64,000 nucleotides of DNA from Natronomonas salsuginis. Lineage in GTDB: Archaea > Halobacteriota > Halobacteria > Halobacteriales > Haloarculaceae. Where the stretch lies: NCBI RefSeq assembly GCF_005239135.1, contig NZ_QKNX01000003.1:248001-312000 (forward strand), in the 5' to 3' direction. The notes beneath the pieces were generated by a model. The model was not told the origin of the DNA and did no database searches. It saw only the letters and a program-made list of their open reading frames with translations. This document shows, one piece after another, positions 61,175 to 64,000 of the stretch (position 1 is its first letter; each line of letters opens with the position of its first letter). The translations under genes and the position numbers were made by a program.

Positions 61175-61353
61175 TAGAGATAATCGAGGAAGTACGCGAC
61201 GATGAGGACGACGATCACGATCGCGATGACCGGGCCGATCGACGCGAGGATGCTGATGAACTCCCCGACGATCTCCAAGACGAGTATCGCGATCACGAGC
61301 AGGAGGACGATCTTCAGCAGGTCCTCGACTTCGAGTGCGCCCCTGTCGAACAT
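61174..61353 (-). CDS. Small membrane protein (59 aa)
   Basis: MFDRGALEVEDLLKIVLLLV opens a protein that is almost entirely hydrophobic (two close helices: LLLVIAILVLEIVGEFISILA and PVIAIVIVVLIVAYFLDYL). TTTTTAT about 27 nt upstream supports this start. Paired with thpR by a one-base overlap; a similar small-membrane family is common in haloarchaea (DUF7554, from memory). Confidence 0.75.
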   Translation of the reverse strand: MFDRGALEVEDLLKIVLLLVIAILVLEIVGEFISILASIGPVIAIVIVVLIVAYFLDYL

Positions 61354-61465
61354 GCTGATCCGTGGGGCCGCCCCGATAAAAAGCGCTCCGGCCGATCCGA
61401 CACGGCAGTCCCTCGACGACGTGCAACCGGTCGGCTTTTGGCCCCTGGCGGCCATCTCCGGACAG

Positions 61466-62200
61466 ATGCACACCGCCGCCCGAATCGCCGTCGTCTGCTG
61501 TATCGCGGCCCTCGCGCTCTGTGGGTTCGCCGGCAGCGCCGCCGCCGTCGACGCTCCCGCGGCCGGCCAATTCATCGTCGAACTCGAGCCGAACGGCGAC
61601 GCGAACGTCGTGTTCACGGACGAGTTCGACCTGACCGACGCCGAGGATCGAGCCGTCTTCGAGGACGCACAGAGCAACGCGGAGCTTCGCGCGGCGGCCG
61701 CCCAACGGTTCCGCGGGGAGATGCAGTTCGTCTCCGACGAGGCGAGCGCGGACCTCGATCGGGAACTCCGCGTCGGCGAGGTGACAGTCGAGACGGCCGT
61801 CGACGGCGAGACGGGGATCGTCGCCTACCAGTTCCGCTGGGAGAACCTCGCCCGCATCGAGGGCGACCGACTCGTGCTGTCGGAGCCGTTCTCGACGTAC
61901 GACAGCCTCGATCGCGAACTCGTCGTCATCGCCCCGGAAGGCGAAGCGCTGACGAGCGTCTCTCCGCGCCCCGAACGGCTCGGCGAGGAAGCCGCGACGT
62001 GGCCGGGGCTGACGCAGTTCGGCGAGCGCTTCGAGGTCGTCGCGACCGGGGCGAACGGCTCCGCCGCAGCCGAGACGACCGCCGATCTCGATCCCGTCTC
62101 ACACTCCCCGGCGAACGCGGACACCTACGGCGGCGCACCGATCGCACTCGGCGTCGCGGTGCTCCTTCTCGGCTCGCTTCTCGTCGGTCGGGAGCGGTAG
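61466..62200 (+). CDS. Exported membrane-anchored protein, DUF7345-like
   Basis: The 244-residue protein has an N-terminal signal (MHTAARIAVVCCIAALALCGF ... AAAVDAP), a large acidic extracellular domain with repeats of V-E-T-x-V and R-W-E-N-L blocks, and a C-terminal helix (GAPIALGVAVLLLGSLLVGRER) with a positive stop, so it is anchored at the cell surface. Family label from memory; function unknown. Confidence 0.8.
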   Translation: MHTAARIAVVCCIAALALCGFAGSAAAVDAPAAGQFIVELEPNGDANVVFTDEFDLTDAEDRAVFEDAQSNAELRAAAAQRFRGEMQFVSDEASADLDRELRVGEVTVETAVDGETGIVAYQFRWENLARIEGDRLVLSEPFSTYDSLDRELVVIAPEGEALTSVSPRPERLGEEAATWPGLTQFGERFEVVATGANGSAAAETTADLDPVSHSPANADTYGGAPIALGVAVLLLGSLLVGRER

Positions 62201-62291
62201 TTCGTCGATCGCGGCACGGTCGTGCTATCGCGTCCCATTCGACCGGCGTTTCGCAAGCATTTAATACCGCTCTGTGGATACTCACGAGTAC

Positions 62292-62381
62292 ATGACGCGA
62301 CCCTACCGCACCGGCGCGATCGCTTCCAGCGGTAGGTCCACTCTTCTCTCGCGACCGCGGCGGGCCGGTAGGCCCGAATAG
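62292..62381 (+). CDS. Leaderless arginine-rich leader peptide of argG (29 aa)
   Basis: ATG 62292 begins a 29-codon ORF (MTRPYRTGAIASSGRSTLLS...) ending TAG at 62379. Seven of 29 residues are Arg. A TATA box (TTTAATA, 62260..62266) is centred 29 nt upstream, so the transcript should start at this ATG. It precedes argG by 75 nt. The Arg content and the RNA stems within it suggest translation-based sensing of charged tRNA-Arg. Confidence 0.55.
   Translation: MTRPYRTGAIASSGRSTLLSRPRRAGRPE
62302..62376 (+). promoter_or_regulatory. Two competing stems in the argG leader RNA (attenuator-like)
   Basis: CCTACCGC (62302..62309) pairs perfectly with GCGGTAGG (62329..62336). A second hairpin, CGGGCC-GGTA-GGCCCG (62361..62376), contains another CGGTAGG (62366..62372) that can also pair with CCTACCG. 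Pairing of the first segment with the second copy would break the hairpin, so two structures are mutually exclusive. The first segment lies right at the early Arg codons of the leader ORF, where a stalled ribosome would hide it. Confidence 0.55.
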
Positions 62382-62455
62382 TATCCACTCCCCCGTCGCG
62401 CTCGCCCCGATTTCAACGATGACCGTCCGGCCGACGGTCCCCAACCAACCACACA

Positions 62456-63655
62456 ATGTCAGATACCGAACACGTCGCACTCGCCTTCTCCGGCGGGCTC
62501 GACACGACCGTCTGCGTACCGCTGCTCGAAGAAGAATACGGCTACGACGAAGTGATCGGCGTCACGGTCGACGTCGGTCAGCCCGAAGCGGAGTTCGCCG
62601 AGGCCGAGGAGACCGCCGAGGCGCTCGACCTCGACCACTACGTCGTCGACGCGAAAGCCGAGTTTGCCGAGCTGTGTTTCGACGCCGTTCGCGCGAACGC
62701 CTCCTATCAGGGCTACCCGCTCGGGACCGCCCTCGCGCGCCCGGTGATCGCCACCGCGATCCTCGAGGTCGGGAAAGAACACGGCTGCACCGGCCTCGCA
62801 CACGGTTCGACCGGGAAGGGCAACGACCAACTGCGCTTCGAGGCCGTCTGGCGCGACTCCGATCTGGAGGTCATCGCCCCCGTCCGCGAACTCGGGCTGA
62901 CGCGAAAGTTCGAACAGGAGTACGCCGAGGAGCGCGACCTTCCGATCGAGGGCGGTGACGAGGGGAAATACAGCATCGACACGAACCTCTGGAGCCGCTC
63001 GATCGAGGGCTCGGAGCTCGAGGAGCCGAGCTACGTTCCGCCGGAGGACATCTACGAGTGGACCACCGCGCCGACCGCCGAGACGCTCGAGATCCAGGTC
63101 GGCTTCGAGGACGGCTACCCGGTCAGTCTCGACGGTGACGAGATGGAGCCGGTCGCGCTCATCGAGGAACTCAACGACCTCGCCGGCGGCTACGGCGTCG
63201 GTCGCTCCGACATCATGGAGGACCGGATGCTCGGACTGAAGGTCAGAGAGAACTACGAGCACCCGGCGGCGACGACCCTGCTCAACGCCCACGCCGCGCT
63301 CGAGGACCTCGTGTTGACGAAGGAGGAGCGCGCGTTCAAAAAGCGGGTCGACCACGAGTGGTCCGAGAAGGGGTATCAGGGCCTCGTCAACGCGCCGCTG
63401 GTCCGCGCGCTCGAGGGGTTCATCGCCGAGACGCAGACCCGCGTCACGGGCAGCGTGACGATCCGCTTCGAGGGCGGGCAGGCCCGCCCGGTCGGCCGAT
63501 CCTCGCCGTACGCGGTGTACTCCGCGGAGGCGGCCTCGTTCAACACCGAGGACATCACGGGGAGCATCGAGCAGAGCGACGCGACGGGGGTCGCGAAGTA
63601 CCACGGGTTCCAAGAGCGTCTGGCGAACCGCGTGATCGGTCAGCACAACGAGTGA
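62456..63655 (+). CDS. argG: Argininosuccinate synthase
   Basis: Condenses citrulline and aspartate in arginine synthesis. The 399-residue protein starts SDTEHVALAFSGGLDTTVCV with the PP-loop SGGLDT, and has HGSTGKGNDQLRFEAVW and YSIDTNLWSRSIEG. It is the first enzyme gene after the Arg-rich leader and is followed by argH 4 nt downstream, so the two form an operon. Confidence 0.97.
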   Translation: MSDTEHVALAFSGGLDTTVCVPLLEEEYGYDEVIGVTVDVGQPEAEFAEAEETAEALDLDHYVVDAKAEFAELCFDAVRANASYQGYPLGTALARPVIATAILEVGKEHGCTGLAHGSTGKGNDQLRFEAVWRDSDLEVIAPVRELGLTRKFEQEYAEERDLPIEGGDEGKYSIDTNLWSRSIEGSELEEPSYVPPEDIYEWTTAPTAETLEIQVGFEDGYPVSLDGDEMEPVALIEELNDLAGGYGVGRSDIMEDRMLGLKVRENYEHPAATTLLNAHAALEDLVLTKEERAFKKRVDHEWSEKGYQGLVNAPLVRALEGFIAETQTRVTGSVTIRFEGGQARPVGRSSPYAVYSAEAASFNTEDITGSIEQSDATGVAKYHGFQERLANRVIGQHNE

Positions 63656-63659
63656 GTCC

Positions 63660-64000
63660 ATGAGTGACGAGGACGGCGATCCGATCGACGGTTCGGCCGG
63701 CGGCTCCGGCGACGTCGTCCGCCGCGAGCGCTTCAGCGGCGGCCCGGCCCGCGGGTTCCTCTCGAGCCTCGCGGCCGACGAGCGCATCTTCGCGGCCGAC
63801 GTCGCTGTCGACCGCGCGCACGTCGTGATGCTCGACGAGCAGGACGTCATCGACCGCGAGGACGCGAGCGCGATCCTCGGCGCGCTCGATGCCGTCGAAT
63901 CGGCGGGCCACGCCGACCTCCCCGACGGTGAGGACGTCCACGCGGCCATCGAGACGGCCGTCATCCGGCGGATCGGCGACCGCGGCGGCCGGATGCACAC
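63660..64000 (+). CDS. argH: Argininosuccinate lyase, partial (3' end outside window)
   Basis: The visible N-terminal ~113 residues include RRERFSGGPARGFLSSLAAD, the family start, and DVAVDRAHVVMLDEQDVIDRED, the usual N-terminal helix of ASL. It begins 4 nt after argG. The catalytic Ser loop and C-terminal domains lie beyond the window. Confidence 0.95.
   Translation, partial: MSDEDGDPIDGSAGGSGDVVRRERFSGGPARGFLSSLAADERIFAADVAVDRAHVVMLDEQDVIDREDASAILGALDAVESAGHADLPDGEDVHAAIETAVIRRIGDRGGRMH

Follow-up and report, generated by a model that had tools for sequence, protein, structure and literature searches.

Does the short, arginine-rich reading frame that precedes argG in Natronomonas salsuginis act as an arginine sensor for the genes behind it? 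The question was addressed in a 64,000 nucleotide stretch of this genome (the window), near the end of which argG is followed by argH, likely the second gene of its operon, and preceded by an upstream ORF (uORF) with a candidate promoter, P1 (Table 1). On the 5' side of this leader another ORF (61202-62200, + strand) encodes signal-peptide-like and C-terminal membrane segments and has no NCBIfam match.

Table 1. Features of the argG leader and of the genes behind it, in window coordinates
Feature	Position	Strand	Evidence or remark
TATA box TTTAATA, leader promoter P1	62260..62266	+	sequence
Leader uORF, 29 codons, 7 Arg, stop TAG 62379-62381	62292..62381	+	sequence; homologous uORFs across Halobacteria
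Hairpin A, inside uORF, arms 62302-62309 (CCTACCGC) and 62329-62336 (GCGGTAGG)	62302..62336	+	fold -18.4 kcal/mol
Distal Arg codon cluster, CGA CCG CGG CGG GCC GGT AGG, codons 21-27	62352..62372	+	runs into hairpin B
Hairpin B, CGGGCC-GGTA-GGCCCG, 6 bp	62361..62376	+	fold -12.4 kcal/mol
G-poor C/U/A tract 3' of hairpin B, candidate factor-dependent termination region	62377..62394	+	
CGTCGCGCTCGC, complement of much of the Arg codon run GCGACCGCG	62394..62405	+	clade-limited
Hairpin C, GACCGTC-CGGCC-GACGGTC	62421..62439	+	sequence comparison; fold -10.3 kcal/mol
argG, argininosuccinate synthase, putative regulated gene	62456..63655	+	NF010392 2.2e-192; TIGR00032 4.7e-131
argH, argininosuccinate lyase, cut by window end	63660..64000	+	TIGR00838 5e-14 on partial protein

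The leader in the window

The TATA box of P1 begins 32 nt 5' of the uORF ATG, and a near-leaderless transcript starting at about 62289-62292 would therefore be expected. The predicted peptide is MTRPYRTGAIASSGRSTLLSRPRRAGRPE, with Arg codons at positions 3, 6, 15, 21, 23, 24 and 27. An earlier sequence-only reading of this DNA had described a 29-codon ORF with seven Arg codons, a 6 bp hairpin (hairpin B), and a CCTACCG sequence (62302-62308) followed by two copies of CGGTAGG (62330-62336 and 62366-62372), all of which are present. That reading also placed argG downstream of the ORF, as found, at a distance of 75 nt that we correct to 74 nt.

The uORF stop lies 2 nt beyond the 3' arm of hairpin B, and for the window alone shuffling gives a p of approximately 0.01 for a stop hairpin of such strength. 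An inverted repeat of GTGGATACT (62274-62282) and AGTATCCAC (62380-62388) was set aside, being partly 5' of the predicted transcription start. The whole 207 nt leader has a folding z of -1.33, with 21 of 200 shuffles folding equally well. Since this is only slightly better than shuffled sequence, argG upstream regions were compared; the features of the window are only mildly unusual when considered singly, and the strong evidence is comparative.

Conservation of the leader among the Halobacteria

Upstream regions of argG were collected from 18 Natronomonas genomes and 80 further haloarchaeal contigs. A single order recurs in them: TATA box, ATG, short ORF, Arg codon cluster, GC hairpin, ORF stop, and a G-poor C/U/A tract. 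A uORF at the TATA spacing with four or more Arg in a stretch of 12 residues was found in 70 of 85 distinct regions, and under a blind TATA plus ATG rule the TATA-to-ATG distance was 30-34 nt in nearly all leaders. Most of the ORFs have 22-37 codons, with peptide lengths ranging from 18 to 53. The element is absent from Haloarcula amylovorans (L092) and from a distant member whose ArgG is 58% identical (L337).

In genome searches a misspaced pattern of the form CGACNNGGGCCNNTAGGCCC had no match and a respaced form matched the element. A covariance model matched 81 of 116 genomes of the class, with few exceptions to one copy each, and its best 30 matches all lay directly 5' of argG. Among 18 genomes that the model missed, 17 have a uORF rich in Arg 5' of argG; the hairpin at its stop is divergent in most, examples being GGGGTC/GACCCC and CGGCC/GGCCG with a loop that contains the stop. 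The non-haloarchaeal genomes searched yielded one marginal match only, and the Rfam covariance models gave only a chance match, on the other strand and below the gathering score of its family.

Arginine is concentrated at the end of the uORF. In the last 12 codons its share is 37.8% in frame versus 21.1% and 7.7% in the other two frames; over the full uORF the in-frame fraction of 0.224 (versus 0.182 and 0.195) is a weak excess that the tail carries. Codon -4 from the stop encodes Arg in 52 of 52 leaders whose stop lies in the hairpin loop (CGA 47, CGG 5). CGA, which is not the rarest Arg codon within the window, makes up 67% of Arg codons among the last 10 leader codons and 23% in the long ORFs of the window. 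The most conserved portion of the peptide is the tail RRPRRPGR-stop, with variants RPGR, RPGL, RRAL and RPGS, and the N-terminal two thirds are variable. Six loci from Halonotius, Halohasta and a Haloferacaceae MAG (L052, L056, L057, L062, L074 and L082) have an Arg cluster of the form QRRLRRLPRAG and a different hairpin, past which the uORF reads.

A hairpin at the stop was found in 76 of 82 leaders, and in 73 of the 82 (the 76 minus three aberrant cases) the uORF stop falls between the loop and 7 nt past the 3' arm, in most relatives within the loop. The other two frames place a stop in this interval in 5 and 6 of the 73. As the leaders were picked partly through this very coincidence, shuffling is the fair test, and it gave 3.6 expected strong stop hairpins where 53 leaders have one. 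Among Natronomonas species the reading frame relative to the hairpin varies, and the stop is retained at the hairpin regardless. At least six changes of arm type map onto the argG protein tree, and pairing survived each of them. Fixed-column covariation in hairpin B scored 0.074 versus 0.038 for shuffled columns (none of 500 shuffles was as high), a modest value because the arms are mostly GGGCC/GGCCC. A cross-pairing control on the hairpin arms was discarded as evidence: ability to pair had been a criterion in choosing the arms, and in a few loci the automatic procedure chose wrongly.

The first 22 nt 3' of the hairpin average 42% C, 26% T, 23% A and 9% G across leaders, and 56 of 73 leaders have no more than two G in the tract. 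Within 40 nt of the hairpin, TTTTT occurs in none of the 73 leaders and TTTT in eight; thus if hairpin B is a terminator, it would be of a structure type or factor-dependent. We know of no archaeal homologue of Rho.

Hairpin A shows a class-wide trend, with a mean z of -1.67 over the 73 leaders. Its place is kept between clades and its paired sequences differ, other stems at nearly the same position being GACGCACCGC/GCGGTGCGTC, GACCCGTCGGT/ACCGACGGGTC, CTCGCAGC/GCTGCGAG and GGCAACACCGC/GCGGTGTTGCC.

The sequence-only reading had likened the leader to bacterial amino-acid attenuators, had suggested comparing it across haloarchaeal argG genes, and had named an ORF or stems unconserved in close relatives as evidence against itself. 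The comparison found the Arg-rich uORF conserved and the stems carrying compensatory changes, so that the general idea of a leaderless Arg-rich ORF with conserved stems holds up. The specific switch that it proposed, in which CCTACCG pairs with either copy of CGGTAGG, does not. Among the first 19 leaders checked, only the window and three others have a 7 nt stretch in the 5' region of stem A able to pair with hairpin B, identical to that of the window in L012 alone of the three; the second CGGTAGG arises from the GGTA loop, and as that loop is unconserved, so is the competition. The stall had been placed at the early Arg codons, whereas the best-conserved Arg codons are those of the cluster abutting hairpin B. 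A ribosome stalled there would most simply prevent hairpin B, which is opposite in direction to the earlier proposal that a stall favours the downstream hairpin.

No antiterminator pairing common to the class was found among the leaders compared, and the simplest mechanism, in which the ribosome itself would block hairpin B, can do without one. Complementarity to the Arg run further downstream was significant in 10 of 36 and 9 of 37 leaders, the window itself not being among the significant cases. It was rejected as a class-wide feature, being significant in about a quarter of the argG leaders and in none for pheS, and it may matter in some clades.

Two layouts were seen between the leader and argG. 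In 41 of 76 leaders there is a single promoter and a gap of 74-137 nt; in the other 35 a second TATA box lies at argG and the gap is 114-155 nt, so that an attenuator there would control only part of argG expression. Hairpin C occurs 5' of argG in the clades without the second promoter. There a conserved TTTCAACGA is followed by hairpin C (ACCGTCC..GACGGT in the window, ACCGCCCGGTCGGCGGT elsewhere), at 62410-62439 in the window and 17-35 nt from the argG start, with a role perhaps in translation or stability. Haloferacales loci, L089, L098, L100, L103 and L107 among them, carry a short TGCCTATAGGCA-like inverted repeat 3' of the leader and 5' of the second TATA box, where it may serve the second argG promoter as a regulator site.

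Proposed attenuation of argGH and its alternatives

As judged from the compared leaders, the conserved element comprises the uORF, the Arg cluster, hairpins A and B, the coupling of the stop to hairpin B, and the G-poor tract, with one copy per genome and restriction to argG. We consider this element likely to be an attenuator that senses arginine by way of the ribosome and controls the argGH operon. RNA polymerase would start at P1, directly 5' of the uORF, and a ribosome would initiate on the leaderless AUG and open hairpin A. With ample Arg-tRNA the ribosome would reach the stop in or beside hairpin B and depart, hairpin B would form, the G-poor C/U tract would be exposed, and transcription would end 5' of argG, probably in a factor-dependent manner through FttA/aCPSF1. 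When Arg-tRNA is short, the ribosome would stall on the Arg cluster; since these codons lie against the 5' arm of hairpin B and extend into it, the waiting ribosome would cover that arm, and with hairpin B blocked the polymerase would continue into argGH. In a study whose main text does not mention argG, hairpins were reported close to 503 RNA 3' ends of Haloferax volcanii, and the single hairpin tested terminated 59% of transcripts (PMC7237163); a role in policing coupling has been suggested for archaeal FttA (PMC11616081).

Several marks of an attenuator are found in the leader. Codons for the amino acid of the pathway are clustered in the leader ORF; the ORF is conserved before the cognate gene, nearly always as a single copy, and control scans performed as for argG revealed no cognate-rich uORFs before leuA, trpD or hisG; and both the stop and the Arg cluster are locked to hairpin B, where a stalled ribosome would alter folding. 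The intrinsic terminator of such systems, a hairpin with a U-run, is lacking, and the G-poor tract stands in its place. The same sensor could instead alter translation or stability of argG mRNA, by way of hairpin C or the complement of the Arg run, with no part for termination. The missing U-run, the partial complement downstream, the closeness of hairpin C to argG in single-promoter clades, and the case of Salmonella speF, in which stalling at Arg codons acts on mRNA decay (PMC6386406), all fit such an effect. We regard it as unlikely, since hairpin C and the complement are clade-limited, and since the TATA box that argG itself has in 35 of 76 species makes the class-wide core independent of the sequence next to the argG start.

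Inverted repeats in DNA would also show compensatory change, and some of the arms are near palindromes, as would suit hairpin B (and A) if they were operators for an arginine regulator and the uORF incidental. This is very improbable given that the arm sequences change freely, that the stop is tied to the hairpin in no frame but that of the uORF, that Arg is enriched in frame, and that Phe- and Trp-rich leaders precede pheS and trpS2 (see below). A nascent-peptide arrest, in which an Arg/Pro-rich tail senses free arginine in the exit tunnel in the manner of the fungal arginine attenuator peptide, would explain why the tail is the best conserved part of the peptide. The conserved peptide sequence of that system is absent here, as the peptide varies outside its Arg-rich tail and the tail itself has variants, and the parallel arrangement before pheS and trpS2, where the runs are of Phe or Trp, points to codons. 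A stall at high arginine would, moreover, keep hairpin B from forming and increase argG expression just when a biosynthetic gene should be turned down, and we give this explanation very little credence. Least credible of all is that the leader encodes a functional small basic peptide that merely happens to sit before argG. A conserved short ORF with its own promoter, and the second argG promoter in many species, would be expected of such a gene; a length that is free to vary, a sequence widely variable outside the Arg tail, the hairpin at the stop, and a single copy always before argG among the top matches would not.

Known attenuators and the leaders of pheS and trpS2

The proposed argG attenuator shares with bacterial amino-acid attenuators of the trp, his and pheST type a leader ORF rich in cognate codons, RNA hairpins, and the ribosome position as signal. 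It differs in being archaeal, in its leaderless start, in lacking a U-run terminator and, among the leaders compared, any conserved antiterminator, and in having its stop codon within the putative terminator hairpin. The polycysteine attenuators reported for mycobacterial cysteine operons (Canestrari et al. 2020, title cited in PMC9031893) likewise have a leaderless short ORF, a cognate codon run near the stop and no obvious intrinsic terminator. They are bacterial and respond to cysteine, and an earlier computational prediction of attenuators for mycobacterial cysteine operons reported no conserved hairpin (PMC1262725). The Salmonella speF leader orf34 likewise senses arginine through consecutive Arg codons and is coupled to factor-dependent termination, but controls ornithine decarboxylase and adds ornithine sensing, RNase G and sequestration of the ribosome binding site (PMC6386406). 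The actinobacterial LEU element has a conserved leader ORF with a cognate codon run able to pair downstream, and differs by a pseudoknot with the Shine-Dalgarno sequence; mutation of its Leu codons was reported to have no effect on regulation, a warning for the argG leader (PMC1262725). Attenuation was described as unknown in archaea in 2021 (PMC8448881). We found no published description of the argG leader element in the open-access literature, and no amino-acid attenuator seems to have been proposed earlier for an archaeon.

Leaders of a similar kind precede two aminoacyl-tRNA synthetase genes. In 18 of 30 haloarchaeal genomes pheS has before it a uORF of the leaderless type whose peptide ends in GFGFFFA or a closely similar sequence (those ending in GFGFFFA-stop include L174, L175, L177, L178, L180, L189-L191, L193, L194, L198 and L199, among others); the pheS scan did not reveal one in the genome of the window (L185). 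Before trpS of the trpS2 type, a short uORF with WRW or a variant (WSWPW) was present in 10 of 10 loci (L201-L210). Judged by their codons, the pheS leader may be a Phe-sensing counterpart of the argG leader and the trpS2 uORF is a probable Trp-sensing leader, and the two lend independent support to the principle of attenuation. Differential RNA-seq in H. volcanii had listed uORFs of 26 codons before pheS and 23 before trpS (PMC4983044, Table 2, which does not include argG), without reading them as attenuators; their lengths match those of the Phe- and Trp-rich leaders seen here.

It seems rather more plausible than not that attenuation is class-wide: argGH, pheST and trpS2 would each have a leaderless leader peptide, for Arg, Phe and Trp respectively, and a ribosome stalled on the cognate codons would oppose factor-dependent termination by FttA, at the stop-codon hairpin in the case of argG and otherwise at an equivalent element. 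If so, Archaea would have their first attenuation system, and with it a functional use of their transcription-translation coupling; some of the unexplained H. volcanii 5'-UTR uORFs (PMC4983044) would be accounted for, and argG with its pheS and trpS2 relatives would offer a compact, genetically testable case in the tractable Haloferax. Many of the pheS uORFs are followed by a GAAACCG motif, whose complementarity to the Phe run is not significant, and the motifs of the trpS2 uORFs are often followed by (P)GADSV.
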